From assembly GCA_947034885.2 (NCBI GenBank), contig OX344749.2:12725501-12789500 (forward strand): 64,000 bases of DNA. The letters are read 5' to 3'. Source of the stretch: Thuidium tamariscinum. Taxonomy: Eukaryota > Streptophyta > Bryopsida > Hypnales > Thuidiaceae. Under the pieces are notes generated by a model. The model did not search any database. It worked only from the letters and a program-made list of their open reading frames with translations, and had not been told where the DNA came from. Position numbers and translations under genes: made by a program. Below, piece by piece: positions 14,654-41,392 of this stretch; the stretch's first letter is position 1; each line of letters starts with the position of its first letter.

Positions 14654-14877
14654 GGTGTGAATCCACAATGAGTTTCACCCCCAAAAAATCGATCCAAGAA
14701 TCCAGTAACAAGGAAAAAGTTATGACAATGCTACCTACTGTGAGAGGGTTTTTAAACCCCCTCAAAGCAAGGCTCTTGCCCTCCAATGAACCAAAACATC
14801 CGCAAGAAGCCTCTTTCGAAGGTTCAAGGCTAGAGTCTAATCACTGAAGCAAGGTAATCCCTCAGTGTTTCAGCTGC

Positions 14878-15360: not shown

Positions 15361-15721
15361 ACCAGCTGGCCTGAGCAAGGTGGACAGTTATTAACCTAGC
15401 TGTAACAGGTATTATTTGAGAGATTCGGAGATTCCTCCTAGTTCCACATTATATCCCACTTCATTCTCATTAAAAGCAGCATCTAAATTACTATGTAGCA
15501 ATAGTTACTCCAAAGTGATTTACCATTTCATGCACATAGAAGCTTTTAAAGGTATTTCCAACCCCTTCACCACCAAGCCCTATTGGCTCTTTCTCCAAGA
15601 AATCATGAACCTTCAAACCTCAATAAAAAATATCATACTTTCACTTAGGAATGTTGAGTTCTATGAGAGCTCAATTATGGAGGAGGACAACCCTCAATTT
15701 CATGATATTTCAAATGCTTAA

Positions 15722-17391: not shown

Positions 17392-17499
17392 TTAAAGGAA
17401 TGCAATATTACTATTGCATAAAAAATTTGTAGTTAATAGACACTTGAGCAGAATGCTACTTCAATGTTGCAAAATTAAAAATTAAAAATTGAAGTTATA

Positions 17500-18840: not shown

Positions 18841-19289
18841 GTTTAAATTTGTATGCTTATAATTTAAAGAAAATTGATGAAGCATATGAAATATTATCCT
18901 ATTCCTAAAAACTAAAAAGGAATATGAAAGTTGCATGTACAAAAATGTATTAATTGAAAGAAACATCTATTTTATGAAATTTAGATATGGACACTTTCTT
19001 CATAAAAATTTGAAATGTCTACATATTACATATTGAGCATTTTATGGAGATGCTTTTTAAAAGATTGAATGAGCATTTTGGATGTTTAAAAAAAACCCAT
19101 CAACATGCAAACAAAGGAATATGAATTCTTTTGCATCCATACACATCAATGATAGAAATGAAACACCCCAAGTTTGCAAAATAATACTAAAAAATAATAG
19201 TAGCCTTTTTATATATAGATGTTTACAAAAGTCATAAGTCCTCCAAAAAATGCTAGCATTGCTAGCCCCCCGAAAGATCATACAACATT

Positions 19290-20687
19290 CTACTTGCTTT
19301 GTTCATCTGTCTTTAGCCTTTTCTTAGCTTCCAAGTCTTTCTTCGCCTCCTTGTAGGCACTATCCAAATTGGATTGAAGAGGAAAATCCCACCATTTATT
19401 TTTCATGTACTCTTTCTTCAAATTCAGTGCATTGAGCAAATTCATCTTCTTCTTCTCCACTTCCCCGGCCACATCACTTTCCAATGCGAGAGCATGGGCT
19501 AACTTCTTCTTTAGGTCCTTTGCTTCCAACTTCAATGTCTCATGTTGCCTCTCATGATCTTCAGAATCTTGTATATCAACAATACGATCAAGAGGGGCTT
19601 TGTCCTTCATTTTCTGAAGGTCACGTAATTTTGATTGTGCACCTTCAAGAGATCTTTTTTCATTTTCCAAGCAGTCAGCTTCGATGTGACAATCTTCCTT
19701 GAGTTTAGCCAATCGTTCTTCTACAAATTTGTTAGTTGCAGAACTAGAACCTTCACCCCCTGAAATGGAGAAGTTCAGATAGAATGCTTCCAAGTTCAAG
19801 ATTTGCTCATGTTGCTTGGACAACTGAATTCGTCCCGATTCAATGAGGGCTTGAAGGGTTGGAACATCATCAGAAGTATCAGTCACTGCCCCTTCCTCCA
19901 AAGTCCTTTTCTCTTCATTTGCTCTATCCAACTCTTCAAGCACACTCTTCAATTGAACTTTATAAAAGTCGTTCAATGGAATATCTTCGTTGGCCTCCAC
20001 ACTTGCAGCTTCAACAGATCCTTCAATTCTTGGCATCCCTTCCAATGAAGGCAATGTCAACGTGGGGCCCGCCTCCACTTCCCCCTCCTCCAAAGGCTCC
20101 AAATTAGCCAATGTCTCACCCACATGTGGTAGTCCAACATCCATCAACTCATCTTCACTACTTTCGTGATCCGACCACACGAACTCATTGTTCGGAACTT
20201 CATTCTTGATGAAAATCTTTTTCCCTAAACCTTCACGTGGGTTTTGGGAGGGACCCGCCCTAGGAATGTCCTTGGTTGACGGTTTTTGGACAAGCTTTGC
20301 TCCCTTAATGGTGCTCCAATCCACCCTTCGTCGAAGAATAACTTCCGCGTACACCATCTCACACAGAAACAAGGGAATTTCATTCCGAGGCACACTTCGT
20401 GTCTTGTACAAGTATTGATATACTTCGATACATCTTTGTACAAATCCATCGTGAGTGCAAGCATGAAGATTTGCCATGTTTGACTTCAAGTGGATTTTGT
20501 GTCGATGATAGGGGAAAAGCTTATCGATGTGGCACCATTGTACAAATGCCCTACAAGTGGTCGCGGTCCAAAAGCCTTCGATCCTCTCCCAACCTCCATG
20601 AGCCACGACATTAGAGTCCACAAGGACGTGTCGTTGTCTTTTTTGCATCTTGCCTTTGGCTTTACGGTTCCTCCGGGTGGCGTCCAT
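19290..20687 (-). CDS. WCHI-domain coiled-coil protein A (unrecognised family)
   Basis: 465 residues from the ATG at 20687 (frame open further upstream, but that part lacks an ATG and is not conserved in the relatives). I do not recognise the family. Residues 7-20 are basic. Residues about 33-128 form a domain shared with the proteins at 31842-33338 and 35226-37700: W-rich start, WCHIDKLF (51-58), RHKIH, ANLHAC, RCIEVYQYLY, RNE, MVYAE, VDWSTIK (122-128). The Cys/His pattern could bind metal. An acidic Ser-rich stretch follows with FVWSDHESSEDE, also found in the 31842 protein (VVWSPNSSSDE), then a long predicted coiled coil to the C-terminus. Single exon. Upstream are a TATA-like box and a GC array, and inverted arms flank the whole unit. 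A nucleic-acid-binding accessory protein of the transposon is plausible but unproven. Confidence 0.75.
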   Translation of the reverse strand: MDATRRNRKAKGKMQKRQRHVLVDSNVVAHGGWERIEGFWTATTCRAFVQWCHIDKLFPYHRHKIHLKSNMANLHACTHDGFVQRCIEVYQYLYKTRSVPRNEIPLFLCEMVYAEVILRRRVDWSTIKGAKLVQKPSTKDIPRAGPSQNPREGLGKKIFIKNEVPNNEFVWSDHESSEDELMDVGLPHVGETLANLEPLEEGEVEAGPTLTLPSLEGMPRIEGSVEAASVEANEDIPLNDFYKVQLKSVLEELDRANEEKRTLEEGAVTDTSDDVPTLQALIESGRIQLSKQHEQILNLEAFYLNFSISGGEGSSSATNKFVEERLAKLKEDCHIEADCLENEKRSLEGAQSKLRDLQKMKDKAPLDRIVDIQDSEDHERQHETLKLEAKDLKKKLAHALALESDVAGEVEKKKMNLLNALNLKKEYMKNKWWDFPLQSNLDSAYKEAKKDLEAKKRLKTDEQSK

Positions 20688-20874
20688 TGGATTGAAGTAG
20701 ATGGAGGTATTAAGAAATACCAAAATGCGACAATAGCTGCCCCAATAGATGCACGAACCACACAATCACAGTAAAAAAAAACCAAGTACTGGACACGCAG
20801 TCAGCCACGAGAAGCGGGTGATAGAGCAGTGTGCAGCGCTGGAATTGCAAGTGGGCGAATGCGGATGGGGCAAC

Positions 20875-20886
20875 CACTTATAAACC
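20875..20886 (-). promoter_or_regulatory. TATA-like box and leader of WCHI gene A
   Basis: Minus strand reads GGGTTTATAAGTGG, about 190 bp before the ATG. The leader beyond it (CCGCATTCGCC… GTGGCTGACTGCGTG) resembles the leaders of the genes starting at 25202 and 31842. Confidence 0.6.
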
Positions 20887-20887
20887 C

Positions 20888-21165
20888 GATGTCGCCTGGG
20901 GCGCGTGCGTTCCGTGCGAGGGCGACTGCGGGTGGGGCGAGTGCGGGAAGGGCGACCGCACGAGGGCGACCGCGGGTCCTTTGAAGGACCTGTTTTGCGG
21001 TCTGGGCGACCGCGCCTGGGCGAGTGCGCGAAGGGCGACCACGGGAAAGGCGACCGCGGGTCCTTCACAGCAGTGGCGACCGCGGGTAGGGCGACCGCGG
21101 GTCCTTTTACGAGGTCATTTATTTCTGAATTTCCCGCCTTCTGACTTGGGCGACCACAGGTTGTT
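20888..21165. repeat. GC-rich array upstream of WCHI gene A
   Basis: About ten copies of the GGGCGACCGCGGGT-like motif, nearly all in plus orientation (antisense to the gene), e.g. GGCGACCGCGGGTCCTT repeated with the same CCTT extension. It ends at the TATA-like box of the minus-strand gene. Confidence 0.85.
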
Positions 21166-21169
21166 CACC

Positions 21170-22015
21170 AAGGAAATCTGAATTTTGGATTTCGCCCTCT
21201 GAAAAATAGTTGTAGAAATGAAAAGGAAGCCGATGTGAACTAAAAAAAGGATTCATGGGAAGAAATGGTGTGTAAAAGAACAAGGAAATGCCCATTTTTT
21301 CAAAAAATAAAAGTTTATAAAAATAAAAAGGGAAATCATATTAACTAAAGAATGCTCATTTGGAGAAAATTCCATGAGAAAATAAATATAAAAATAACAC
21401 AATCAATGAAAGGCTTGAAAGAAAAATGCATTGTAGGAATGAAAAGAAAAATCTCAGTATCAATAAAAAAAAATCATGAATTCAACTGCAATAGTGCAGT
21501 AATGACCTGAAGTATGTCAAAGCTAAATGCTCAATAATGTAATTGAATGCCTATATAAGTTAAAATGCAATGGTATACATTTCCACCAATATTTGGTGTG
21601 TAATTTTTGAGCATAGGAAGCTGAGATTCATTTTATATAGATTAATAATGATGTCCAAAGTTGTACACCATCTAATTTGGTGGGAAAAATATCTAACTAA
21701 AGAAATTGTTGCAAAAGTATTCTATATAAAAATAACTACCAAGTGGACTACTAAGTATTATTCAACCTTCTTTTTTGGATCCATATTGCTTACATAAAAA
21801 AATATAGAAGCATGTCTATTCTTTATTGTTTTTTTATTTAAGTTGAAGGTGACATTTGAGAGCCATTGTAAATACAAAATCACATCATTTCTTTGTTTTC
21901 CTTACGACCCCCAATCAACATCCAAGAGCATAATAAAACATGAATTTCTTTTTTGGGTTTTAGAATATGATGATTATGGTGTGAAAGACCCTGAATCCAA
22001 AAGCACATTAGCCTT
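21170..22015. other. AT-rich non-coding DNA
   Basis: No supported gene. Short frames at 21570-22052 are AT-driven and lack domains. Confidence 0.5.
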
Positions 22016-22019
22016 GTTT

Positions 22020-22460
22020 TTGTGGGAGGTTTCTATTGGGAACCTCATTTAATTCTAAGACATATTTTTTTATTTTTTTAGAAAGTTTCCCATCATAACT
22101 TCATTAAATTCAAAAGTGCATTTTCTTTTAAGAGGTTCACATCAGAAACCTCATTTAATTATAAAACTAATATCTTAATTATTTAGTAAGGGTTTTCATT
22201 AGGAACCTTATTTAATTCAAAAACATATTTATCTTGAACCCCTTTTTTTTAAAGGGTTCCCACTGAGAACTTCATTGCACTCAAAAACACATTTTTTTGG
22301 ATGTGGTTCCCATTGGAAACCTCATTTATTTCAAAAACACAATTCCCTCTTTTTTTGGCGTGGTTTACATTGCAAACCTCATTTCATAAAAAAAAACAAT
22401 TTCCCTCTTTTTCAAAAGAGGTTTGCATTGGGAACCTCATTCAATCCAATAATTTGTTTT
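22020..22460 (+). repeat. Degenerate tandem array, about 57-bp unit, about 8 copies
   Basis: Repeats of a unit like GGTTCCCATTGGGAACCTC followed by ATTTAATTCAAAAACAcat. Starts of units lie near 22026, 22085, 22137, 22195, 22255, 22305, 22362 and 22420. The GGTTCCCATTGGGAACC part is itself a short palindrome. The small frames reading through it are repeat artefacts. Confidence 0.75.
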
Positions 22461-22469
22461 ATTTTATAA

Positions 22470-23195
22470 AAAATTTGGTTCTTGTTGTGCATAAACTCAT
22501 ATGCATTAAATTCTGTGATGCCTTATTTGGAATACTCATTCAAAAGATGTTAAGTGATATAACCTCACCTTTGGAATTCTCGGAAAAAAATTAAATTTTT
22601 AAGCTATTAGTAGTTGAGGTTAGGGGTCAACTTTAAATCAACCTCTACTTAAATAACTATTTAGAGAGAACAAAACATTATTTTCTTTAGGGTGAAATCG
22701 TAGATCAAATATTGAAAGATTCCTTAGTTATTGGTCACAGGATTGATGATATCATCATTTGGAACATGAAGGGGGGGGATTTTAGTGCTCAATTTCCTTT
22801 TCTATCTAGCCTTTCGGCCCTTTTCAAGCTTGGCCGCTTTGTATATTGGATTCATCTTAATGCAATAGTTCTTCCATTTTTTCAAATACATATTTAATTT
22901 TATTTTTTGCAAATTCATTTCAAAAATAAAGTATTACAAAATCTAAATTCAAAGTGGAAAAATTTTAGGATCTAAATATTCTAAAACGTAGGTATTGTAT
23001 ATGGTATTATTGTCCAACAATATGTTATAATCTTATTAAAATATCAAGGATTATTTTGAGTTTTCTTCTATTCTAATCCTTGCCTTTATCCTTTACAAAT
23101 TAATATCAATCCTCTTTAGTTTTTTGAGATAGGACAAGTTCTTATACACTTTAACAATTCCTTAAAATTATAAGCGTACAAGTTCTAACTAGGTA
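22470..23195. other. AT-rich non-coding DNA
   Basis: No domain-bearing frame and no clear repeat end. It lies between the 57-bp tandem array and the right inverted arm. Confidence 0.45.
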
Positions 23196-23199
23196 AATG

Positions 23200-24245
23200 C
23201 AGAGATTATCAAGGTAAAGAAAATATAATATTATCACTTATGGAATTATGGATCAAGAGAGTATAAATAGGTATGCCACAACTATAGAATATTTCAACGT
23301 GTTTATAACATATACCCTATAATATAAGTGTGTATAACATAAGTGTACTAGAAATCTCTTTTTTATGATCCAGACACGTATATTATAAGTGAATCGTCTT
23401 CTAGTCTTAGGGACTCACATTCTTAGGCTCATATAGTAGCATCCGTCACGAGTTTTAAGAGGGATTTGGGATGCAATAGATCTCCCATTTGTTCAAAAAA
23501 TAAAAAATAAAAAATTGTACAATGGTTTGTAAAGTTCTTCATTTAATTCAATATTCAAAATTTATTACAATAATTAAAATATAATGTGTAGGATAATTCT
23601 TTGAAATTTGAACCATTGAAATTAGCATTTTCAATTCTAGAATTGAACTACTAACAACTTAGTCTTTGAAATCATTCAATATTCCTATCTACTTGCTATG
23701 TTTTCCCAAAATGTTATACACTTCCAAATGGTTAAAAAGTTCTCAAGTATATTATCAATTGCCTCTAAACATTGGTATAAATAAGCACCACCATTTACGG
23801 CAATTGTTTTATATAAATGTGATTGTATGAAGGGCAACTTCCAGATTTTCTTACATGTCACGGCCCTCAAAAGAATTTCAACCAATTCAAATGTTAATAG
23901 CAAGGTAATTCTCATGGTAGAAAAATTTGAAATTTCCTCCACCACTTTTCAAACTAGCATAATATAGGATACTACAACTATATGTGCCTCAATTCATTTT
24001 TTTCCTCAAAATCTACTACTTGTATTCAAAAGAGCAATTATGGATAAAACAAAATTCAAATCACTTAGAGGTTTAAAATTCATAGTTGGAGAATGTTCAT
24101 TGAATTGCATTCAAAGATTTGCATTAGTTTGGCAAAGGTATAACCTCTTCTAATTCTTCACTCCATTTGGCTCAAATGCTTTGTTCTATTAAATGTTAGA
24201 TTTTAGTACAATGAGATTTTCCATTTACTAAAAAACTAGGATACA
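23200..24245 (-). repeat. Long inverted-repeat arm, right
   Basis: Reverse-complement partner of 17500-18840 (see there). It ends just before the next GC array, so the unit arm–WCHI gene A–GC array–57-bp array–arm spans about 6.7 kb. Confidence 0.7.
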
Positions 24246-24289
24246 ATACATTAAACTATTCCCTAATGACAAATTTTTAGTTGTCATGT

Positions 24290-25012
24290 AAAGCGACCGC
24301 CTTTAGAGCGACCACGCTTCACAATTTATTTATTTATTTTGAACCAAAGGGGCAAGCCCTCTGCATGAAGAAGCTTAACAAAATTTGCAAACCCTGAAAG
24401 TAAGGCGACCGCGGGTAAGGGGCGACCGCGCCTCAAGGGCGATCGCCAGTGCCACAAGTTGCGTCAGAACACACTACCATTCCAGGCTCGGTCGCCCCTT
24501 AAGAGAATATTTTATTTACTAAATAGGTTTCATCCAGTGTCCCGCAATGCTCTATCAGCAGGGTTGAAGTTCGAGTTTCAACGAGACATTTCTCGATTTT
24601 ATCCATCTTCAGAAGTTTTTTGTTGTAGACATCATAAACTCGATTGAAAACATGATGAGCACTTTTCACTTGCAGCTCCGACGACACGGGATTATCTCGA
24701 CACTTGGTAGTGCACAGCACAATTGCCTTCCCGAGCAAAATTTCCACCACATTCTCATTTTCAACTCCCTTGATACTGCCTTGCGATATAAACACCTCCT
24801 TCCCGCCCTTGCGTGGAGGAAGCTCTTTCTTCAGAGTAAGGGAGCTCCTCAAACGCGGTCGCCCCCCAGCCACTGTCGCCCCCCAGCCGCTGTCGCCCCC
24901 CAGCCGCGGTCGCCCTCCAATCGCGGTCGCCCCCAGTCGCGGTCGCCCTACGCACCCGAGGTCGCCTACCCGCGGTCGCGTCTGGATCCGCACGCGCCTG
25001 GGGCGACTTTGG
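24290..25012. repeat. GC-rich array, in two parts, upstream of the kinase-like gene
   Basis: Part one (about 24292-24500) carries motifs in plus orientation (GGCGACCGCGGGTAAGG). Part two (24853-25012) carries at least ten mostly in the opposite orientation (CCGCGGTCGCCC with CCAGCCG spacers). A coding-like segment (24499-24840) separates them. Part two ends at the TACTTAA box of the kinase-like gene. Confidence 0.85.
24499..24840 (-). pseudogene. Unrecognised coding-like fragment between two GC arrays
   Basis: An open minus-strand frame of about 114 codons with balanced amino-acid use and complexity well above the surrounding DNA (e.g. VENENVVEILLGKAIVLC, HHVFNRVYDVYNKK, LLIEHCGTLDETYL). It has no ATG outside the GC repeat, which would add an Arg/Gly-rich artefact head. 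I do not recognise it. It may be a captured exon piece or the remnant of a sixth element gene driven from the opposite side of this array. Confidence 0.35.
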
Positions 25013-25160
25013 GTACTTAAGCAGTCTCCGGGACCGCATTCGCCATCTTGCCTCGGCCTTGCGCACTGTCTTTCACCCGCCTTGAAGTGGCTGAATGCAT
25101 GCCCGTGGGCCGGGGTCCTTTATTCGATTTTGGGGGGATTTTTTTGTCATTTTGATCTAT
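25012..25160 (+). promoter_or_regulatory. Promoter and leader of the kinase-like gene
   Basis: GGGTACTTAAGCAGTC lies at 25011-25026, about 185 bp before the ATG. The following leader (GCGCACTG… TTCACCC… GTGGCTGAATGCATGCCCGTG) aligns with 31497-31610 before the gene at 31842 and, more weakly, with the leader of the 19290-20687 gene. This shows a shared promoter module. Confidence 0.65.
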
Positions 25161-25201
25161 AAAATTCCTCAAAGCTACAGTGAAGCTTTCGATTACACGC
25201 A

Positions 25202-26857
25202 ATGTCCAACCCAATAGAAGATGGCGACGTGAGGCACAAAGGTGTTTTGGATACTCATCCAATATTCTCAGAAATGCCTAATCCCACAGAGGGTACCAGT
25301 ACCTTGAGGCGAAAATCCCTTTGGGATTTGGATGATCCACAACACTTTCTAGAGCCTATATTTACAAGCGAAACAACAGGGAATGAAGCTCGATTGAAGA
25401 AAAAGAAGTCCAGGTCTGCTCATGATAAGGATCCAACATATCCTCCTTCAAGTTATACGAAGTATGCATACGAGGTGTGCCTTCAATGGTACGCTGGCAA
25501 AAGTGTACAATTTTTGGAGGCAAACTATTTGAGGGATGCTGGAACAGGCACGGAGAAGCTGATGGGGGATTTGGAGGCCCGAATCTTAAGCAAGTGTTAT
25601 GAATCAGAGGACTTCAAAGACGTGGACTTAACGTACAATTCCAGATTTTGTGATTGGATGACTGATACTATTCAGGCAGTAACTTTTAATACCAAGAAAT
25701 TGATGATAGAGTTCCGTGCACCAACCACAGGACGAGTGGAAGATGAAGAGGCAAAGGAATTCCGTGCGAAGATGGAGTGGTGGCATACTCCGTCCAAGAG
25801 ATTGTCAAAGTTTGGATCGAGGGGTTTCAAGTGGAAAAATGACGCTGTGAAGGCTGCATTTGCAAGAGATGGTGGAGTGAGTATCATATGGATTCCACCC
25901 ACGGCAAAGGTTGAGGCCCTCGGTGGTTTTTCTCGTGAAGGTGGCCACGGAAAGGTGCGAAAGGTTCAAATAACAGGTCTAGATACCATTCCACCAAATA
26001 TTGCTCTTGCGGGGAAAATGCCAAAAACGAAGGACTTGCGTGATCAACGGGTGGAGCGGTCCGTAGAGGCCTTGGCATGCCCTTTAAATCATGCAGGCTT
26101 AATTAAGTTTTTTGCCTTAAACTCAATTACCATGGAAGCGTATACATTGTGGTGGAATGGAGGTCATTTGGGTGACTTACTGAATGTGGATAAACTGGTG
26201 TCACCAAGTACTGAATGGCACGAAGTGCATCGAATTAGACAACTTCCTAAAGAGAAACAAAAGGAAGTTAGCCTTTTTCGAAGGCATAAGGCAAAGTTGG
26301 CATGGACCTTGGTGTATGTGACTCACCTCATGCACCAATCATCAGTGCTACACAACGATTTATCTCCGAGAAATGTATTGTTGCACTATCCTGATTATTC
26401 AAATGAAATAATCAACATTGGGATTTGTGATTTCGGAATTACAAGCCTTGTAAACGAAAAAGCCCCATCGCATTATGGATATCCTACCAAGGAAGAGACA
26501 CTGAAGCAACAAGAGGGACGATGGTGGGTGGCTCCAGAGTTGTTTTATACATTTGGACCACCTAATTCGGATACAAGCATACCAATTATGCAATCGAGGC
26601 ATAAATATACAAAGCAGTCAGACTCGTATTCTATTGGAAAGCTGGTGGAAGCTATGAAGATTGGGGATATGTATCCTTTTGACAAAGAGACATTCACAAC
26701 GATGGATGCATGTAGGTATTTTGCTATGAAGGTGGGCCAACTCAAAAATGAAGATCTGAAGGAGAGACCAACATGTACAGAGGTGGTGAATTTGGTCCTG
26801 GGGCCTCCATGGTATATGAAGCCTCCAACATTTGTATTGCGCGATTCCCCCCTGTAG
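25202..26857 (+). CDS. Protein-kinase-like protein in the giant element
   Basis: 551 residues, single exon, ATG at 25202. The first ~200 residues are unrecognised (basic KKKKSRS patch near 68-73, YAYEVCLQWYAG, then WWHTPSKR). The C-terminal half reads as a protein kinase domain: a glycine-rich stretch near 241-252 (GGFSREGGHGKV), a possible ATP-site Lys in IALAGKM (K272), the catalytic loop HNDLSPRNVLL (H384, D386, N391; the usual Arg of HRD is Asn), CDFG (D410-G412) and VAPE (A444-E446), then a W/P-rich end. So catalysis is plausible, though the Lys assignment is uncertain and the Lys after HxD is replaced (LSPRN). The substrate is unknown. It shares its promoter module with the neighbouring element genes. 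It may be a captured host kinase; I cannot name the family. Confidence 0.7.
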   Translation: MSNPIEDGDVRHKGVLDTHPIFSEMPNPTEGTSTLRRKSLWDLDDPQHFLEPIFTSETTGNEARLKKKKSRSAHDKDPTYPPSSYTKYAYEVCLQWYAGKSVQFLEANYLRDAGTGTEKLMGDLEARILSKCYESEDFKDVDLTYNSRFCDWMTDTIQAVTFNTKKLMIEFRAPTTGRVEDEEAKEFRAKMEWWHTPSKRLSKFGSRGFKWKNDAVKAAFARDGGVSIIWIPPTAKVEALGGFSREGGHGKVRKVQITGLDTIPPNIALAGKMPKTKDLRDQRVERSVEALACPLNHAGLIKFFALNSITMEAYTLWWNGGHLGDLLNVDKLVSPSTEWHEVHRIRQLPKEKQKEVSLFRRHKAKLAWTLVYVTHLMHQSSVLHNDLSPRNVLLHYPDYSNEIINIGICDFGITSLVNEKAPSHYGYPTKEETLKQQEGRWWVAPELFYTFGPPNSDTSIPIMQSRHKYTKQSDSYSIGKLVEAMKIGDMYPFDKETFTTMDACRYFAMKVGQLKNEDLKERPTCTEVVNLVLGPPWYMKPPTFVLRDSPL

Positions 26858-27149
26858 TGATGAATGCATTAGTTGAAGGCAAATTGTTGAGCTATTAGAA
26901 GAAATTGTTGGCAACAATGTGAGCCTATCATTTTGTATTACTATACACGAATATATAAATTTTTCTTTGGCAAAACAAAGTGTACATACCATTGCCTTCC
27001 ATGCATTGTATTTTAAAAGTTAAAATATAATTTATCTTGGGAGTCAAATTTGTCTTCACTGTGAGTTGAAATGTCATATGACATGTTTGTATCAAGTCCA
27101 TAAGATCACCTTTTTGGGGAGTATGGGGAAATAATATATTACGCAGGCT
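26858..27149. other. 3' flank of the kinase-like gene
   Basis: Short non-coding flank with AT-rich stretches (ATATATAAATTTTTC near 26950) that could hold a polyadenylation signal. No further gene. Confidence 0.4.
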
Positions 27150-28247
27150 TTATGGGTGATTGCATGAAACACTTGTACTGCTGTGTTGCATCATGTTTTG
27201 TGGTGACTAGTTTTTTAGCCATAACTTATGTTTTTTAGCTCCAAATGATTCAAATTTTTAAAAATGGGTACTCATAACTATTATACATCATTTAGAATTT
27301 TTGAAGATTTAAAAAAAATATTTTACTATTTTTAAATAGCCCCCAATTTTTTGTCACATATTCCAATTTAGGGGTTTTTAGTACTATTTAGAACCCAAAA
27401 AAAAGAATTTTGAGCTGAAATTTTGAGAGAATGTTTTTTTAGTAGAATTATAGCTTACCTCCAAAGGAATTATAAAAATAGTCATTTTTTGGATGTATAG
27501 AAGTCCACAAAGAGACCTTCTTTCTACTTGCTTTTTGAAACATATTAAACATTTTTTTGGTGATTTTCTTGGTCAAGCCTTATCACCAAAAAATCTTCTC
27601 AAATGGCCAATTTTTATTTTTATTTTCAAAAATGTTTTTTATTTTTTATTAATTAGAACATTGAAGTATGTATTTTCTTCACCGGAATTCTATGTGTTCT
27701 ATGTCCAAAATCCTAGTGAAGAAAAATACAACTTCAACATTTTAATTTGTAAAAAATAGAAAAAACAAATTTAATGAAATCTAAAAATTGGCCATTTGAG
27801 AAGACTTTTTGGTGATAAGGCTTGACCAAGAAAATCACCAAAAAAATGTTTAATATGTTTCAAAAAGCAAGTAGAAAGAAGGTCTCTTTGTGGACTTCTA
27901 TACATCCAAAAAATGACTATTTTTATAATTCCTTTGGAGATAAGCTACAAGTCTACTAATAGAATATCCACTCAAATATTCAACTCAAAATTCGGTTTTC
28001 TGGGTTCTAAATAGTACTAAAAACCCCACAATGTCAAAGTGTGACAAATTAACAAAATTGAATTTTAAATATCAAATGTTTTTTTTTAATTTGTAAGAAA
28101 TAAGAATAATAATTTGAGTCAAGATATCGAGGAAGTGTTTTTTTATTTTGGACACTTAGTTTTTTACTCAAAAGTTAGAGCCATCTTAAAGCGGTCAACC
28201 CAAAAAAACGCAACAAATAGTACAAGTGTTTCGTGCATTCACCCTTA
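27150..28247. mobile_element. Fold-back Harbinger-like element
   Basis: About 1092 bp (27153-28244) flanked by TTA (27150-27152, 28245-28247). The ends GGGTGATTGCATGAAACACT and, on the right reversed, GGGTGAATGCACGAAACACT match those of 5134-5881. Most of the element is one long inverted repeat: 27440-27613 pairs with 27784-27960 (TTGGATGTATAGAAGTCCAC with its complement near 27893-27912). The transcript would fold into a hairpin. The plus-strand frame at 27493-27759 is one arm and not a gene. Confidence 0.8.
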
Positions 28248-29600
28248 ATATGCTCACAAATTTCATGCTCATGCCTCATGGAGTCATGGCTCTTAGCTCA
28301 CAAGCTCTTTGTTGCAAGCTCTCATACTAGTGTCGTTGAAAGTGAACGTGTTCAAATTACTTGTTAAATTGTGTTAAAGGATTTTCATTATTTTGTCATT
28401 TTTTATTTTTATTTTTTTTAAAAATATTTTGTCATATTTTTAAATAGTCACTTGATTGCTTGAAGTCAATGACATTGACATGTTTGTTGGCCCTTTAGTG
28501 TGCAATTTTTTTTCCCAATAATAGACAATATTGAGTAAAATTACAATTCCCAAAATGTTATAGGTTTTTTTTGTCCATAGTACTCTATAGTATAAGGGAT
28601 TTTTTTCCTCTAGTAATTTACATCCTTAAAGATTTAAAATAGACTTAAGAGATATGGGACTTCAAGCAACAAAGGACCCAAACATTTGAGACTTCATTCA
28701 CTTCAAGAGTTCAAGTTGGTAGTAATTAAATAAAATATGATGAGCCTTTATCCGTATAGTGAAACTAAAAAGTCCTTGATAATTGTATCCTCCATTTCTT
28801 TGCTCCTCAATCCTTACGTGCAAAGATTTTTAGGTGATTTTTTAGATTAGAGATGAATTAGAGATGAATTGACATGATTGACTAGTGCATGTATTCAGAA
28901 TTTGAATTTTCTATTAAAAATTTCCGATCATTATGAAATATGAATTTATGAAGAAAGCTTAAAAGAAACTAATATTCAATACTTAATCCTTGAAGGGCAA
29001 AGGGGGACATAATGTACTTACTCGAAATTTTCAATGACAAATTCCCGATAGGGCAAAACTAATTTAAGTCTTCATTCTTAATACACAAAGAAAACTTTAA
29101 TTTTATTTTCAAATTTTATTTATTATAAATCTGAAAAATATTACCCTAAACCTAGAGTTCTAGAATTATAGTGTGAATGTATGATAGAAAATACCAAATA
29201 ATTAGAATGATTCCAATTTTCTGGAAGATGTTTCTATTTATGGAATGATAATAAGAGATTTATAAAATTTGAAAATTTACACATATATAGTTTTTATAAA
29301 AATGTTAAGATCCAATTTGGTCAATTTCCCTATTTTTTACAAATTGAAAAATAACAGTGCCTATTTCCATGAGCCATTTGTATTTTTCTAGTTCACCACT
29401 TCACCTACTTAGAAACCTTTTCTACACTTTTCCTTCATCGGATATCTTCTTCTAGAAGAAATATACATTCTCTATATTTTTTATATTTTTTAAAAATTGT
29501 TTTTGTATTTTGAAAGTACTCCCGGAAAATCAAGAGTACTATGGCCAAAGTGTACCAAAACCGGTCAACCCTCCTATGAAGATAGGCTGTTTGTTTGTTT
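28248..29600. other. AT-rich non-coding DNA with a TTAA-type end
   Basis: No gene. At 28983-28986 TTAA is followed by TCCTTGAAGGGCAAAG, and the next 70 bases resemble the left end of the TTAA element at 15722; a matching right end may be at about 30163 (CATTAAGGAG then TTAA at 30164-30167), but divergence makes this uncertain. Confidence 0.4.
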
Positions 29601-29606
29601 GGATGT

Positions 29607-29901
29607 TTGTTACGTTGAGATCTCCCGAACCGTGAGTCCCCCGGGTGCGTGTTTGGTACCATTGGAAAGCCCTCGGCGAGGAGGGGTGCACGGGCTTTGA
29701 TTCATGGTGTTCTGACCTACGGCATGAAAGTTATTGAATTTTGAAGTTTCTATATGTTACGTTGAGATCTCCCGGACCGTGAGTCCCCCGGGTGCCTGTT
29801 TGGTACCGTCGGAAAGCCCTCGGCGAGGAGGGGTGCACGGGCTTTGATTCACGGTGTTCCAACCTACGAAATGAAAGTTATTGAATTTTGAAGTTTTTAT
29901 A
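29607..29901 (+). repeat. Tandem duplication, 147-bp GC-rich unit, 2 copies
   Basis: TACGTTGAGATCTCCCG starts at 29611 and again at 29758. Each unit includes GTGAGTCCCCCGGGTGC, GGAAAGCCCTCGGCGAGG and GGGTGCACGGGCTTTGATTC and ends with GTTATTGAATTTTGAAG. The copies differ at only a few positions, so the duplication is recent. It is GC-rich but differs from the GGGCGAC arrays. Function unknown. Confidence 0.85.
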
Positions 29902-31290
29902 CATTTATAAAAATATTTTTTTCTTTTCTTTTAGACCGTGGCAACGGCACAGGCCACCCTAGTCTTTCTTGAACTTACGATAAATGGTCTACAACATAAA
30001 ATTCTTTGAAAGATCTAACATGTTGAATACTTGAATTAGAATTTGAACAATTTTAATTAAAAGAAAGTTGTCGAACTTGTCAAAATGTAGACAATTTTTT
30101 CAATTTACAACAAATTCCAAGAAGCTCAAAATAGGCCTTGGCGCCTTGTCATTAAGGAGTTAATGGCTTTACGTGTGGAGAAGTTTCTTGTGCCATTCCA
30201 TGTTTGATAGTTTTGCTATAGATCTTGAATAAAGTACAAGATTTCAATTTATAAATTTTGAATGGAAACGAAATTTAATTCCAAATATTCGGTTTTGTTA
30301 CCTTTTATGAATAGCTAATTGGTTAAGTTTGAATGTCAAAATGAAGTTATAAATTTGTAATGGGAGAAACCAAGAAAATATTGAAAGGCACTATATTTTT
30401 TTATTTTCTTTAATGATTTTAGATTGGCTTACTGACATATTGGATATTTGGATGAGGAAATGGAGTTTGTCATCATGCTTTACAATAATTTGTTTATTAC
30501 ATTTTGGAAGAATGGATGTGAATTCATTTATTCATGGTATATTTAACTTCTTTATCTTATATACTATTATAGATTGAATTCCTTTATTTTGTTTTGTTTG
30601 CAATATTTTCAAAGAAGGAAGAAAATGATAGATAGTACTGAACTATGTTGTTTAGAAATCATTTAAACCATAGGGATGGTCAATTATGTTATTCCATCAA
30701 CACTTTTTTGCCATTTTGGCATGTACAATAATTTTCTACCTTTGCCTATTTACAATTTATTTCCCTTATCATATATAATTTGAATAGTTTTAAAACCTTT
30801 TAATACAATATCAAATTTGTTTTTTTCGTAAATATAGAAGAAGACTACTATTTTTTAACTACTTGCGAAACCATTTCTAGATACATGAGAGGTTCCTCAG
30901 AAATAAATTATTGAAAATAGATATCTTTTTTTTGGTGAACTATTATCTTCAAAGATTATAGAAAGTTACAACACAAAGGATTTTTCGATTTCAACCATAC
31001 AAAATTCTTACAAATTTGGGACTTCACGACTTTAGGGGATGCTAACTTCGTAGAAGTCACTGAACTAATCATTAACCAGTAAATGGCCAGGGCCTATTTT
31101 GAGCTCCTTCGAATTTGTTTTCATTAAAACGGAATGTAAACATTTTCATAAGTTTTTATTATTTCACTCTTGATTAGAAATGACAAACATTATCATCAAA
31201 GGTTGCATAGGAAAAAAAATATATCACTTATAGAGTGAAAGACTATAATATTTGATAATGAAGGTGTTAAAACAACAAAAGAACTAGAAG
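29902..31290. other. Non-coding DNA with inverted phrase pair
   Basis: AT-rich, no gene. AGCTCAAAATAGGCC near 30122 is inverted at about 31092 (GGCCTATTTTGAGCT); each lies next to a TTAA (30164-30167 and about 31072-31075), like two relict ends of one TTAA-type family. The last part (31229-31262) repeats the phrase at 9643-9680. Confidence 0.45.
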
Positions 31291-31295
31291 CCCCA

Positions 31296-31495
31296 AACCC
31301 GAAGGCGCGGTCGCCCATCCCGCAAACGTGCACCCGTGGTCGCGCACCCGCAGTCGCCCATCCCGCGAACGCGCACCCGTAGTCGCGCACCCGCGGTCGC
31401 CCAGCCGTGGTCGCACCCCACGAACGCGCACCTTCCTGGACTCGCGGTCGCCTTGAATGCGCAGTCGCCCTTGCGCACGCGCCCTAGGCGACTGC
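31296..31495. repeat. GC-rich array upstream of WCHI gene B
   Basis: About twelve motif copies, mostly in GCGGTCGCCC orientation, with a GCACCCG(T/C) variant (CGCGCACCCGTGGTCGCGC). It ends at the TACTTAA box of the plus-strand gene. Frames reading through are repeat artefacts. Confidence 0.85.
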
Positions 31496-31496
31496 G

Positions 31497-31650
31497 GGTA
31501 CTTAAGCAGTCGCCCCGACCCGTAGTCCACCTCCCTTGCTTTGCGCATTGACCTTCACCCACTTAGATGTGGCTGATTGCGTGCCCGTGAGCAAGGGATT
31601 CCATACTTCACGTCGGGATTTGCCATTTTTGCGCTCGAGCTCTGCACATG
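31497..31650 (+). promoter_or_regulatory. Promoter and leader of WCHI gene B
   Basis: GGGTACTTAAGCAGTCGCCC lies at 31496-31515, about 340 bp before the ATG. The next ~100 bases (TTGCGCATTG… TTCACCC… GTGGCTGATTGCGTGCCCGTG) align with the leader of the kinase-like gene at 25012-25115. Confidence 0.65.
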
Positions 31651-31841
31651 CTTGGCATACTGTTATGTATGAGTATGTGCCTTTTTTTTTTATAAAAAAA
31701 ACATTTTGTAAATGCATATAGGTTTGTAAATGTGTAGTTTGCTTGTTCTAGGGATTTAGGTTTTTAGAAAAGAACATTTTAGTCGTAGAACAATTAGTTA
31801 AGTTAACCATAGAGTAGCATAGTACTCAGGTAGCAATAGTT

Positions 31842-33338
31842 ATGGAGGATGAGACTGGAGCAGCCCAGCCTAGTACAGGCAAACCATTGACTTCACCACA
31901 GAAGAGGGCAGCTCGAGACAAGGACCGTAAAAGGAAGGGGAAATGTCACAAGAAGCGAGTGCCTCTCCTTCAACATCCAAAAATCAAGGCTTTTTTGGGT
32001 TGGAGGACTGAACCTGAGCCTTGGACTTACAAAACAGTCAACAAATATGTTGATTGGTGCCACATCAACAAGTTGTTTCTACATTGGCGCCACAAGATTC
32101 ATTTGGGGCAAAACAAGGCCAATCTTGCATATTGCAAAGATGAAGACTTCACACTCAGATGCTTGGAAGTATGGATGAGGTTGTATGGGGAGACCAAGCC
32201 ATATAGAAACGACAATTTCTGTTTCTTCCTGGTCCAAATGGTGTATGCTGAAAACATATTGAAGAAAAAAGTGGACTGGTCAACATTGAAGGAGCTTCTA
32301 GTTGGAGACCATGTGGAAGAAGCATCTATTGTGGCAGAAGGTGAAACAATTGATGTGAAGAAGTCATTGGCACGAGTGAAGCCTGGGAAGTTAGCTGTTT
32401 TGGATGAAGACGTAGTATGGTCGCCTAATTCTAGCTCGGATGAACACACCCATGAATACGATGGGTATAATTTCCAGAGCGACGATGAGGATGTTGGCAT
32501 GGGCGACCAAAAAAAGGCCTTGGAGTTGGAACTTGCCAAGAAAGGCAAAAGAAAGGTGGAGGACCGAGGGACTCCATCAAACATCCCAAAACAAGTCAGG
32601 GAGGGTCATGAGCATATGGAAGTAGGCCAAAAAATTGTTGAAGGCCTCCAAGATGGGAGAGTAGGTGATGGAGAAGAGAGTGTGGACATTATCCAAGCTC
32701 AATTAGATTCAGCAATTGAGGCCTTGGATTTGGTGAAAAGACATGTGTTAGAATTGCGCCAAATAAGAGCATTGGAACTTAGTGCTGGCACAACTGCACA
32801 CACCATCCCTATGTTGAAGGAAGAGATGAAGGCCATACATAGGGCCATCTCTGAAAATGACGAGCGCCTAGCTTCTATGAAAAAAAGTAGAGATCTTTAT
32901 TACAAGAAGAAACAAGAGAAGCGTGGACACCCAATGGATGTGTATGCCATACTTCAACAAAAATTGAGAATTCTTGAACGCGAACGTTGGCGGGTGCACA
33001 ATGACGTAAGAGTCCTCAATCGGCAAATAGATGAGGAAGAAAAGACCAACTACGTTGCTGCTCTACAATGTGCCTCAGAGCTAGATTTTCTCGCTATGGC
33101 TCCTCAATACGGTACCACAGAAGAAGAAGTATCAGTATTGCGGAAGCTTGTAAAGCTACATGAGAAGAAATTTGTGGAATCAGTGAAAGAGGTGGGACAA
33201 TTGGATTCACAAATTAAATTTGAGCACGCTTGGATGAAGTGGAAAGTGCGTACTACAGCTCGAGGTGTTACTCGTAAAGACCTTGAAGAGATAGGTCCAG
33301 AACCCAAAGAAGAAGATTTTTGTAATACCACACGTTGA
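31842..33338 (+). CDS. WCHI-domain coiled-coil protein B (unrecognised family)
   Basis: 498 residues, single exon, ATG at 31842. Residues 21-39 are strongly basic (KRAARDKDRKRKGKCHKKR), a possible nuclear-localisation or DNA-contact patch. The shared domain covers about 54-150: GW, WCHINKLF (72-79), WRHKIH, NKANLAYC, RCLEVWMRLY, RND, MVYAENIL, VDWSTLK (144-150). VVWSPNSSSDE and an acidic stretch follow, then coiled-coil segments from about 285 to 470 and a C-terminal basic-acidic tail. Its closest relative in the window is the protein at 19290-20687, with which it also shares the VWS-acidic motif and general length. I do not recognise the family. A role as the element's DNA-binding, dimerising accessory protein (comparable to TNPA of En/Spm) is inference. 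Confidence 0.78.
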   Translation: MEDETGAAQPSTGKPLTSPQKRAARDKDRKRKGKCHKKRVPLLQHPKIKAFLGWRTEPEPWTYKTVNKYVDWCHINKLFLHWRHKIHLGQNKANLAYCKDEDFTLRCLEVWMRLYGETKPYRNDNFCFFLVQMVYAENILKKKVDWSTLKELLVGDHVEEASIVAEGETIDVKKSLARVKPGKLAVLDEDVVWSPNSSSDEHTHEYDGYNFQSDDEDVGMGDQKKALELELAKKGKRKVEDRGTPSNIPKQVREGHEHMEVGQKIVEGLQDGRVGDGEESVDIIQAQLDSAIEALDLVKRHVLELRQIRALELSAGTTAHTIPMLKEEMKAIHRAISENDERLASMKKSRDLYYKKKQEKRGHPMDVYAILQQKLRILERERWRVHNDVRVLNRQIDEEEKTNYVAALQCASELDFLAMAPQYGTTEEEVSVLRKLVKLHEKKFVESVKEVGQLDSQIKFEHAWMKWKVRTTARGVTRKDLEEIGPEPKEEDFCNTTR

Positions 33339-35225
33339 AGTGAAGTATTATAGGGTTGTGCTTTGATTTTGCGTTTTGGACAAATGTGTCTAATTTTAGG
33401 ATGTAATTTTTTGGTAATTAATGTAAAAAGCAATTTTCGGAAAAAATGTGCAAGTCGTGAGGATATTTTATTGAAGATGTGAAATAGTATTATGATAGTT
33501 TAGGACATAACCACTTGAATAATTGTTCCACCAATTGAAAACCCTACCCAAATCAATATAAAATCAATTATTTTCTGTTGTTTAGGAGTTAGGACATTGT
33601 AATGACAAATGTTTATCTATAAAAAAGAACCAATAATGATTAACTTCTAAAGGAAGAATGTCAAATTTTTCGAAAAATTACTTTGTGGTGCCATTTCTGT
33701 TGCATTCATCCAAAAGAAGACTTTTTTTTCCATAATATCCAACCGTAGGATCTTGTACTTTGCTTGCCTAAGATCATGTGGTGAAATGTTTAGGAAGTTT
33801 GACCGGACAGATTGAAAGATATGGCCATCGAAAGTTCGAAATAAAGTTTTCCGAGATGCAATGCCTATAAATGGAGAATACAAAATACTAATTACATTCA
33901 TTTGCTAGAAGAAATACTTCATGTTTTTATGGTGGAATGAAAGTGGAGTTTTAAGAAAAATAGATTAGGTACATTTCCAATTTCCAATTGTGGTAATAAT
34001 AAAAAAATTATGATATTTTTTAGCAAACTTTGATAATCTTTTTGGCATAGTAAATTAACAGTCATTGATAAAAAGAGAACTTTCTAAAAAAAATTGTGTG
34101 ACAAAGTTCACTTATTTTTTCCAAAGATCCGTTTGAGAATTGAGATTTCAAGCTTCTGATCAAAAGTAATGTGCAAAAATCATAGAAGGCTTCAAAGGCC
34201 AAAAAATTACCAAAAACTTCAACATTATTTCTCCTTTTTATCCATAAATTTTGAAATAAAGATCCAAATGTCAAATCAATTCTTGGACATTTAATTGAAC
34301 TTCAATTCAACCCTTTTTTTGGTTTAGAAATTTCCTTCAAAAATTCATTTATTATACCTAATGGATGTCCGAAGTGTGTTGATTTGGTTTCAAATTATAT
34401 GATTTCTAATTATAACATGGATTCTAGACTTTGTAGAGAATTCAAATAATACGTGATTTTTTGAAAAATGAATCTATATTTGTACAATCCTAGGTTTACA
34501 AATACATTTGCCTATGGTTTTCAAAGAACATAAAATTAGGAAAATAAATTTTCCTCTAATATGTCAATGAACAATGAATTATGGAAAAACAAAATTCATG
34601 AGACATATTTTGTCTATATTATTCCATAAAAGTATGTATGTAAAAAAAAATTTGAACCTTCAACTTCTCTCATTGTTCATTTTTTGATATTTATCATATA
34701 AATTATTAGAATAAAAAAATGCGGTCTTCTTGTATGGGATTTAATGATCGAAGTACCTTTCTTTCATTCAAAAATAAAACCGACGTAGGCTACTTCTTTC
34801 CATGATCCAACATGAAAGAGTACTTTGTTATAAAACAAGAATAAAAAACAAATCAATTTCCTTAATACAAAGATTCAATTCGTATTTATAGAAATGAAGC
34901 CATTCACTATTTAGACAAGTGCAAACAATAGAATTTCTATACAGTAAGGTAAAGCCGAAAAAAAAGTATATATTAAAAAGAGATAAACACAAAATTGTTA
35001 TGAAATAACAATTAATGAAGAAAACCTACTAGAATCCATCAAATAAAACTATAACAATAACACATAGGCTAATACTTCACAATGCAAATAGTGATGAAGT
35101 TCCATCGTATTATCGTATAAGAAGACTCTAAGAGCCTTCTTTTATATATATAGTATGACGAAAAGTCACAAGTGACCTAGATGATTACGAGGCTAGCTAT
35201 AGAACCATAGTTAGCATCTTAAACC
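33339..35225. other. Non-coding DNA between convergent genes
   Basis: AT-rich, holds the 3' flanks of the two convergent WCHI genes. Frames at 33647-33901 and 34062-34274 have no domain. The 34060-34330 stretch resembles repeat DNA in 47880-48130 and 49440-49870 (FTTCA-like phrases around CCGTTTGAGA). Confidence 0.5.
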
Positions 35226-37700
35226 CTAAACATTTGGGTCTTCATGTGCATTGCTTGATTCACCACGCTCGTGGTTGGATGATTCTCCAACCACAAGTTT
35301 GCGCTTGGCGCGAGTGCGTGAAGCTGGTCCATTCGCATTTAGAATGGATTCTAAGACGTTGGAATCCTTCAAGGCTTGGAGGGTCCTCATGGTCTGTGGA
35401 GAGTGTTTCTCCAACAAATAGTCAACAGTTTGACTCGTGTAGTAGGGCCCGTATGTAGAGTCCAGCAATGCCATACTAGTAAGATCTTCTTCAGAGGCAT
35501 TTGCAGTCTGGTCGCACACTCTTTTTCCTTCAAAATCCCAACGGTGACATTCCGGATGACGTCCCCACATGAAGCTTTGTGATTGTTTATCGAAAAATCC
35601 ACCAAGGCATTGGAAAAAAAATGCCCTTCGTCCCTCGTTCTGTGGACCGTTTCCCATGAGCTTGGATGCAACTTGCACGATCTCTTCTGGGTCAGTTTCC
35701 CAATTCAATTGAGAACTATCTGTGCCCTTTTCTTGATCATGTTGGCCTTGTCGCCAACTCCAAATCAGGTCTCGGCCCCATAATCTGGTCTCCGAAGTTG
35801 TGTCACCTGTGTGTTCCCAAGAGGGCGGCATATATGTCATCAAGTTGAACAAGGCGTATAAACGATCATGGAATGGGGCTGAACAAATAACACAACGTCT
35901 CCGTATGAGGCATTGTGTAATTAGACATTGAGGATGGTATACGTGCACGCATGATCCAAGTGCCCATCCTCCTTCAGGGCCGAAGGATTCTTGACATATA
36001 GGACATTTTGTATGGTCCAAAACAAAAGTTGCTGGCTTTGGCCACAAAAGTTGTTGTTGTTTCTCATCTACGTGGCACGACATCTGGTTTTTGTGGTCCC
36101 AACCAAGCTGTGTCCAATTGATTCCTTCATTTCCAGGGGTGTTCAACATAGGCATATTCTCAGGAAACATGTCCTCCATAAATGCCCACGATGTGAGTCC
36201 ATTCTCACGTTTAGGGGCATTTGCGACGAAGTTCTTTGAAATTTTGTCCAACTCCTTTGCAACTTGCTGTGATCTGTCCACGGAGAGAATGCACGCAACC
36301 TTCCAGTGATAGTATGTTGCTGCCAACTCATTCAATCGTGCACGAAGCATCTTGTTTTCCTCTCGAAGGCCTAGTTTCTTCGGAGATGGTACCGGTACTG
36401 GGAGTGGAAGTGATGGAAATGAAAGTGAATCTTGAGTCTTGTGAACACCATTTGCCCCCATGATAGCATCTTCCGTGACGGTAGGCAAAATCGTAGTTGG
36501 CAATACTGAAGAACGTTTGACACGCTTGCCAGGAGGAGTACACTCAATGAGACCGCTAGTGAGGTCTTCCACGACCCTCTCCAAATGATGAGGATCATGT
36601 TCAATGAAACCTTCGTCCATATCTGACAAAGTAATCGTCTCATGTTGTTTTTGTCGAAGGCGTTGAAGTTCTTTGGCTTGTTCTAAAATGAGAGCATTCT
36701 TCTGGTCCAAATTTGATTGCAATTTCTTCACATCAGATTGGAGTGAAGCAATTGTCGTGTCTTTGGTCTTCAAGAGGTCAAGAGCCTTATTGAGAGCCGT
36801 GGTTGAATCCCCTTGAGCTAAAAGAACAGGAACGCTCGCATCCACAGGCGTTTCATCATTTGGTTCGAAGTCGAAGACATCGGTCGCATTTTGCAGTGGT
36901 AATGATGGACTGCGAACTGTTGCTGAGGTCGATCCAAGTCCGATTTGATTCAGCGAGCGTGGAACCTTAGAGGGGCGTCTAGGTTTCCGTCCTCGTGATG
37001 ATGAAGCTCCTCTAACAGCTGGATCTTGAATTACTGGTACAGGGGCAATTTGTGGAGCAATCCGTATTGGCCTTGGAGCATGTGTGCCATCGGAATCGCT
37101 ATCTTCTTCAGATTCCGATGTGATAACTTCGATGACACTCTTATCGAAAGGATCTTTTCGAATTGGTCCAAGTCCACCCTCCGGAAACTTCAAGACTCCT
37201 CTTGGTATTGATCCAATTTTTGGAGGTGAAACATACATACTTTCCTTGATGGTGGACCAATCCACTTCTTTTTTTAGAACCACCTCAGCATACGCTCCTC
37301 GAGCAATGGAAAGCGTGACTTCATTCCTTTCTACAAAAGGAGTGTTGTAGAGGACTTGCCAAATTTCGATGCACCTTTGAACAAAAGCTGGATTTTCACA
37401 ATATTTCAAGTTCGCCTTGTTTGTGTGCCGATTGTGATGATGGCGCCATGCCGGAAACAATTTCCCAATGTGACACCATTCAATGTAGTCTTCGCACATT
37501 TGAATTGACCAAGGCTCCTCCTCCTCGCTCCAGCCTTTAAATGCGGGGTGATCAGGATTGTTCAGCACGTGTAATCGCTTGCGATGAGTATTGCCTCTGC
37601 GCTTCCGATTTTTGTCTAGTATAGACTTCCTCGCAGCATAAGTGATTCGTGTATTGCGTGGAACAACGGGGGGCACCTCCGGGGTCTGCTTTGTAGCCAT
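35226..37700 (-). CDS. WCHI-domain protein C with RING-H2 finger (putative E3 ligase)
   Basis: 824 residues, single exon, ATG at 37700 in good context. Residues 24-42 are basic (RKSILDKNRKRRGNTHRKR). The shared domain covers about 56-152: GW, WCHIGKLF (75-82), WRHHHN, NKANLKYC, RCIEIWQVLY, RNE, AYAE, VDWSTIK (146-152). Then an acidic Ser-rich linker, a coiled coil (about 310-350), a Pro-rich stretch, and a RING-H2 finger with perfect spacing: C566-x2-C569-x14-C584-x-H586-x2-H589-x2-C592-x10-C603-x2-C606. RING-H2 proteins are usually ubiquitin ligases that recruit an E2. The region after the finger is unrecognised and W-rich; the tail is basic then acidic. So this looks like a WCHI domain fused to an E3 module. 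Upstream are a TATA-like box and the right-hand GC array of the element. Confidence 0.82.
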   Translation of the reverse strand: MATKQTPEVPPVVPRNTRITYAARKSILDKNRKRRGNTHRKRLHVLNNPDHPAFKGWSEEEEPWSIQMCEDYIEWCHIGKLFPAWRHHHNRHTNKANLKYCENPAFVQRCIEIWQVLYNTPFVERNEVTLSIARGAYAEVVLKKEVDWSTIKESMYVSPPKIGSIPRGVLKFPEGGLGPIRKDPFDKSVIEVITSESEEDSDSDGTHAPRPIRIAPQIAPVPVIQDPAVRGASSSRGRKPRRPSKVPRSLNQIGLGSTSATVRSPSLPLQNATDVFDFEPNDETPVDASVPVLLAQGDSTTALNKALDLLKTKDTTIASLQSDVKKLQSNLDQKNALILEQAKELQRLRQKQHETITLSDMDEGFIEHDPHHLERVVEDLTSGLIECTPPGKRVKRSSVLPTTILPTVTEDAIMGANGVHKTQDSLSFPSLPLPVPVPSPKKLGLREENKMLRARLNELAATYYHWKVACILSVDRSQQVAKELDKISKNFVANAPKRENGLTSWAFMEDMFPENMPMLNTPGNEGINWTQLGWDHKNQMSCHVDEKQQQLLWPKPATFVLDHTKCPICQESFGPEGGWALGSCVHVYHPQCLITQCLIRRRCVICSAPFHDRLYALFNLMTYMPPSWEHTGDTTSETRLWGRDLIWSWRQGQHDQEKGTDSSQLNWETDPEEIVQVASKLMGNGPQNEGRRAFFFQCLGGFFDKQSQSFMWGRHPECHRWDFEGKRVCDQTANASEEDLTSMALLDSTYGPYYTSQTVDYLLEKHSPQTMRTLQALKDSNVLESILNANGPASRTRAKRKLVVGESSNHERGESSNAHEDPNV

Positions 37701-37867: not shown

Positions 37868-37904
37868 CGAGTATGGGTAAAATCCAGGGCGCGTGCGAAT
37901 CAGA

Positions 37905-38220
37905 GGCGACCACGGGTGGCGCTAGAGCGACTGTGGCTAGAGGCGACTGCGGCTTAGGGCGACCGCGTATTGGAAGGGGGCGACCGTGGGTCCGAGTAGG
38001 GCGACCTCAGGTGCGGATGGGGCGACCGCGGATGTGGGGGGGGCGACCACGGGTCCTTGAAGGGTGACCGCGGCTGCGCATGGGGCGACTTCGGGTGAGC
38101 CGCGGTCGCCTAATCCTGCAGTCGCCCCTAGCGCGGTCGCCCCCACGCTAAACCGCTACCTGCGTTCGCCCTATCCGCAGTCGCCCTACCCGCGGTCGCC
38201 CTACCCGCATGCGCCCTAAT
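37905..38220. repeat. GC-rich subterminal array, right end, and promoter array of the RING gene
   Basis: About eighteen motif copies (by eye): GGGCGACC(G/A)CGGGT in plus orientation up to about 38095, then inverted (GCGGTCGCCC) from 38098 to 38215. This one array serves as both the right subterminal region of the element and the upstream array of the RING-H2 gene. Confidence 0.85.
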
Positions 38221-38446: not shown

Positions 38447-38522
38447 TTGTTACATTTGATGTTTAACAAAATCCGTCAAGAAAAATTGGTCTTGTCACAT
38501 TAAACAAGGATTTCTACTAGTG
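38447..38522 (-). repeat. Right terminal inverted repeat of the giant element
   Basis: Reverse complement begins CACTAGTAGAAATCCTTG and pairs with 8911-8987. CTT at 38523-38525 copies 8908-8910. Confidence 0.9.
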
Positions 38523-38525
38523 CTT

Positions 38526-41388: not shown

Positions 41389-41392
41389 TTAA

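Follow-up and report, generated by a model that had tools for sequence, protein, structure and literature searches.

Three WCHI-domain genes and the arrays of a 12-bp repeat in a giant CACTA transposon of Thuidium tamariscinum

Among CACTA transposons a TNPD-type transposase is expected in autonomous members only, and TNPA of the element En/Spm has a dimerisation region. TNPA binds the subterminal repeats of En/Spm and is needed together with TNPD for transposition (PMC2613891; this and the other papers are cited for excerpts of their text). The DNA-binding proteins of CACTA elements are described there as little alike between families, even when En-1 is compared with Tam1. Here we analysed 64,000 nucleotides of Thuidium tamariscinum (contig OX344749.2, positions 12,725,501 to 12,789,500, forward strand), hereafter the window. 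A CACTA element in this window carries three paralogous genes, A, B and C, whose proteins share an N-terminal domain, here called the WCHI domain, and arrays of a 12-bp repeat, GGGCGACCGCGG. The presence of the repeat at the element's ends and at its gene starts suggests that A, B and C may read it to control the element.

TNPA and its counterpart TNP1 of Tam1 resemble A, B and C in being encoded by CACTA elements whose subterminal regions are dense in short repeats, direct and inverted, that could serve as their sites. Like A, B and C, they show no similarity that can be detected to proteins from other CACTA families (excerpt of PMC2613891). Unlike TNPA and TNP1, which come from one spliced mosaic transcript, A, B and C are three separate uninterrupted open reading frames (ORFs) without a Pfam match, and the present element has arrays 5' of every internal gene, binding to the repeat being a prediction here. 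VANDAL elements are Mutator-like. Their VANC proteins are comparable in that they, too, are carried by an element and are candidate readers of short motifs placed densely in its non-coding DNA (excerpt of PMC5735166). The difference is that our proteins belong to a CACTA element, would face another motif and have no Pfam domain found in common with VANC. Tgmt*, a 20.5-kb CACTA element of soybean, is likewise large, with a 3-bp target-site duplication (TSD) and asymmetric subterminal arrays. However, it has a transposase with a Tnp2 domain, whereas none was recognised in the scanned parts of the present element, which carries a hAT-like, a kinase-like and three WCHI genes (for Tgmt*, excerpt of PMC2613891).

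A CACTA insertion in a LINE reading frame

Positions 8911-38522 of the window are a 29,612-bp CACTA insertion into the ORF of a long interspersed nuclear element (LINE), and all three WCHI genes lie within it. An earlier note on this DNA had assigned the three genes to one transposon; this assignment held, and the ends are now set at 8911 and 38522. The terminal inverted repeats start with CACTA and are 89.6% identical across the outer 77 bp. On the minus strand, the LINE ORF breaks off in its endonuclease region after 38523 and resumes from 8910; with the element removed and one CTT kept, an unbroken LINE frame runs across the junction (...GVEQEAWDKVIFKLGLEDAH...). The endonuclease match is to Exo_endo_phos (E 2.3e-4, under its cut-off), and the LINE has RVT_1 (E 4.5e-19) and zf-RVT (E 6.9e-14) after it. 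CACTA-type terminal inverted repeats, a 3-bp TSD and reiterated direct and inverted subterminal motifs, the features by which CACTA elements are recognised, were all found.

We also considered, and dropped, a different element of 31 kb with the inverted repeats 10132-11045 and 40566-41392 as its ends, since the first of these repeats falls within the CACTA element and the second beyond it. A further point against this 31-kb element is the palindrome at 58607-59357 (93% over 754 aligned columns, TTAACCCC ends), which belongs to the same family as these inverted repeats.

Three paralogues with a common domain

The three ORFs described in the earlier note are open (465, 498 and 824 amino acids; Table 1), and the common domain that it had seen in them was borne out as a basic, N-terminal stretch of about 125 residues. 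Over 123 aligned codons, domain identity was 46.3% between A and B, 44.7% between A and C and 46.3% between B and C. The corresponding BLAST scores of 110, 125 and 111 bits stand against a maximum of 22.7 bits in 60 shuffles per pair. A profile of the three domains recovered A, B and C at E 5.3e-86 or better, which follows by construction, and detected no fourth copy in the six-frame translation of the window (next match E 1.9). The proposed motif WCHIxKLFxxxRHxxH is common to the three except for the second histidine of RHxxH, which is unaligned in C (RHHHNRH). Invariant cysteine and histidine residues are C52, H53, H63, C77 and C86 in the numbering of A. The earlier note took such residues to suggest a metal-binding, perhaps DNA-binding, fold; of the two, metal binding is a conjecture, and DNA binding gains support, of an indirect kind, from the repeat arrays described below, which that note does not mention.

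The first 150 residues carry a net charge of +15 in A, +15 in B and +7 in C, the remainder -23, -13 and -10. As the earlier note had claimed, each protein has a different C-terminal part: when the tails were compared from residue 141 (A), 161 (B) and 166 (C) with 100 shuffles per pair, no pair beat its best shuffle. Scores were 21.2 bits for A/B (95th percentile 25.4), 18.9 for B/C (21.9) and 22.7 for A/C (21.9), the last being slightly over the 95th percentile and under the shuffle maximum of 28.5. A kinship of the A and B tails, hinted at by a long tblastn alignment, was therefore dropped. Protein C contains a complete RING-H2 pattern at residues 565-606 (C-x2-C, C-x-H-x2-H-x2-C, C-x2-C; eight ligands by eye), to which Pfam zf-RING_2 matched at E 5.5e-4 with 20.6 bits, under its cut-off of 27.3.

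The domain belongs to no named family in Pfam, PDB sequences, PHROGs or NCBIfam, in line with the absence of a name in the earlier note. With hmmscan at E up to 1, no Pfam family, zinc-finger families included, matched inside this domain in any of the three proteins. PDB sequence searches with the WCHI proteins gave nothing under E 0.001; the best values were 0.43 and 0.011, the latter to a designed-looking chain and one of several sub-threshold profile matches of the tail region to other proteins. PHROGs and NCBIfam returned 0 families for each of the three proteins at E up to 0.1, and Rfam returned 0 matches at its gathering threshold. Among 72 pattern matches in viral contigs and 31 in genome contigs, 0 were confirmed as WCHI domains. 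A literature search, in sources available in part, found no description of the domain, or of a CACTA element with arrays 5' of all its genes, which leaves their absence in print unproven.

Divergence among A, B and C was 0.39-0.455 at codon position 1, 0.309-0.407 at position 2 and 0.61-0.642 at position 3, and the higher third-position value indicates constraint on the protein. At 31 of 49 pooled fourfold sites the codons differ. Synonymous distances are saturated and incalculable for all three pairs. The duplications are therefore old, and not events inside the present element copy. The earlier note had proposed duplication and domain shuffling within the element. Duplication followed by an exchange of tails fits the data; its placement within this copy does not.

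The 12-bp repeat and its arrays

At two or fewer mismatches, GGGCGACCGCGG matches the window 78 times, compared with a mean of 0.19 and a maximum of 2 in 100 dinucleotide shuffles. All but one of these matches (77 of 78) fall inside the 29.6-kb element, leaving 1 in the remaining 34,388 bases. The copies form six clusters (Table 1). Each end of the element has one close by, and each of the five gene units has one on its 5' side; the right subterminal array is at the same time directly 5' of gene C, its nearest copy 204 bp away. Each of the four internal cluster centres lies 900 bp or less 5' of its own gene start, an arrangement equalled by 7 of 200,000 random placements; both the repeat consensus and the 900-bp limit were picked post hoc, and the hAT-like gene has an uncertain start. 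Up to 900 bp 5' of the five genes there are 63 copies, 47 of them oriented opposite to the gene and 16 in its direction.

Across 93 units with up to four mismatches, each position of the core GCGA (3-6) is conserved in 95-98% of units. The first CpG survives in 89 units and the third in 77. The middle CpG survives in 50, and 24 of its 43 changes are to TG or CA. Such a pattern would look like that expected of a protein-bound core. Observed/expected CpG ratios are 1.07-1.27 in seven array blocks, partly for the trivial reason that the repeat itself has three CpGs, 0.47-0.79 in six gene stretches (LINE included) and 0.20-0.56 in four spacer stretches. We had considered that GC-rich blocks might mark genes in general, or the LINE; this was dropped, as the block that adjoins the LINE is the left end of the CACTA element and the repeats are confined to the element in the proportion given above.

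Table 1. Positions of the element, its termini, arrays and genes in the window
Feature	Position	Strand	Remarks
Target-site duplication, left copy	8908-8910		CTT
CACTA (En/Spm, CMC) element	8911-38522		29,612 bp; CACTAGTAGAAA at both ends; flanking LINE ORF continuous without the element
Left terminal inverted repeat	8911-8987	+	
Left subterminal array	9177-9467	+	14 copies, all +; 266-556 bp from left end
hAT-like transposase gene	11977-14674	-	DUF659 E 3.9e-31, hAT dimerisation domain E 1.2e-7; start uncertain
Internal array	14901-15354		18 copies; 5' of hAT-like gene
WCHI protein A	19290-20687	-	465 aa; domain ~aa 6-130; acidic tail
Internal array	20853-21159	+	11 copies; 5' of gene A
Internal array	24403-24981		11 copies; 5' of kinase-like gene
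Protein kinase-like ORF	25202-26857	+	551 aa; E 1.5e-11; HNDLSPRN, DFG and APE motifs by eye
Internal array	31305-31497		8 copies; 5' of gene B
WCHI protein B	31842-33338	+	498 aa; domain ~aa 27-152; acidic tail
WCHI protein C	35226-37700	-	824 aa; domain ~aa 30-154; heptad-like ~aa 298-355; RING-H2-like finger aa 565-606
Right subterminal array	37904-38201		15 copies: inner 9 +, outer 6 -; 321-618 bp from right end
Right terminal inverted repeat	38447-38522	-	
Target-site duplication, right copy	38523-38525		CTT

The hAT-like gene is split over two overlapping frames and is probably frameshifted. Further repeats lie inside the element. Gene A is flanked by inverted repeats of about 1 kb (17508-18921 and 23110-24233; 77-79%), and inspection of their 60-base flanks by eye showed no evident TSD. 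The interval from the kinase-like gene to gene B holds a palindrome of 784 nt (27307-28090; 83%), and tandem repeats occupy 15808-16472 (183 bp, 3.6 copies) and 29608-29901 (147 bp, 2 copies). Elsewhere in the window, a second CACTA element at 47326-50166 (2,841 bp, CACTAGTAGAAA ends, TSD ACA) has no match to GGGCGACCGCGG and contains two palindromic stretches (47842-48190 and 49338-49710). Retrotransposon-like ORFs at 60847-63313 contain no 12-bp array, with one isolated two-mismatch copy of the repeat at 60879; a DUF4100 match there is slightly under cut-off (26.6 versus 27.9 bits), and a literature search on DUF4100 found nothing.

Candidate readers of the repeat

In our judgement it is an even call whether this giant CACTA element encodes A, B and C as TNPA-like proteins whose WCHI domain binds GGGCGACCGCGG. 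Such a role would fit because a basic domain is joined to an acidic tail, in three copies, and because the repeat stands at both ends of the element and at every gene start. The WCHI domain would bind the repeat as a 12-14 bp site, GGGCGACCGCGG(GT). Acidic and partly heptad-like, the tails could form dimers or bring in partners, protein C having its RING-H2-like finger in addition. At the subterminal arrays, a TNPA-like protein would help to bring the ends together for excision, while the arrays a few hundred bases upstream of the five gene units would act as promoter elements that control the element's own genes. Proteins bound to the repeat might also keep these CpG-rich promoters unmethylated, as reported for TnpA of Spm, whose activation of the element correlates with demethylation (excerpt of PMC10398659). 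The three paralogues, with their differing tails, may share out the tasks of end assembly and promoter control, and transposition itself would depend on a CACTA transposase provided in trans. A bolder form of this proposal is more doubtful: the element might have its own regulon, in which the repeat is both the transposition site and the promoter box of all five genes, and a private, diversified family of WCHI readers, one of them fused to a RING-like finger, controls the whole element and protects its promoters against silencing.

Several observations weigh against TNPA-like readers, in addition to the post hoc choices and the partly trivial CpG ratios mentioned above. No TNPD-type transposase (Transposase_21) was detected in the ORFs of the element or in six-frame translations of five read-through spacer blocks (9460-11283, 15400-19300, 21180-24400, 26858-31300 and 33339-35225), a scan that left out the arrays, the termini and the other frames of the gene stretches. 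Just two Pfam matches, both under cut-off (E 0.055 and 0.13), occurred in these spacers. The present copy thus looks non-autonomous, as the majority of CACTA elements are reported to be (excerpt of PMC8195511). Furthermore, no CACTA protein family was among the Pfam matches of the three proteins at E up to 1, which carries little weight because the published TNPA/TNP1-type members are mutually dissimilar. Both AlphaFold models were poor (pLDDT 54.8 and 49.7), too much so for a judgement of Cys/His clustering, and helical in outline only, and a fold search with the first of them gave no match (best E 1.9). The heptad signal is weak, with best z values of 2.6 in A, 2.2 in B and 3.2 in C, chosen among many windows. 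A possible BED-like finger, to which no Pfam family matched, was seen by eye in the hAT-like protein, and this protein could read the arrays instead. Finally, TNPA reportedly represses an unmethylated promoter too (excerpt of PMC1636069); since both activation and repression are reported for it, regulation by WCHI proteins could be of either sign.

The WCHI genes might instead be host genes of one plant family, carried as passengers in a non-autonomous CACTA element and without a role in its movement. Host gene fragments have been reported in CACTA elements (excerpts of PMC2613891 and PMC8195511), and the element also holds the kinase-like and hAT-like genes, with no CACTA transposase recognised in the parts scanned. 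We nevertheless think this unlikely. The reported passengers are fragments, whereas here three full-length, open members of a family each stand behind the element's repeat. Saturated synonymous sites also fit a long residence of the family better than one recent duplication, although three host genes that had already diverged could have been captured.

Two other explanations concern the arrays themselves. If the WCHI proteins were VANC-like anti-silencing factors, they would bind the arrays just to remove methylation and take no part in cutting or joining. This would suit CpG-rich arrays 5' of all five gene units, but CpG content is an indirect sign of low methylation, the arrays fill both subterminal regions too, as in CACTA elements, and no VANC-type domain is among the Pfam matches of A, B and C at E up to 1; we regard such a purely anti-silencing function as distinctly improbable. 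The hAT-like transposase or a host factor could also read the arrays, leaving the WCHI domain to do other work, such as protein contacts. The hAT-like gene likewise stands behind an array and retains its hAT domains. However, it is probably frameshifted, and the 3-bp TSD and CACTA termini of the element are not those known from hAT elements, so that we give this assignment a slim chance.

Pairing a reader with its site has been hard in CACTA elements because both the proteins and the subterminal repeats diverge between families (excerpt of PMC2613891). The element described here supplies a candidate reader and its candidate site together: three natural variants of a compact domain, and a well-defined repeat that forms six clusters. 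Purified domains would allow direct tests of how reader and site co-evolve and of how binding at the ends is linked to promoter control.

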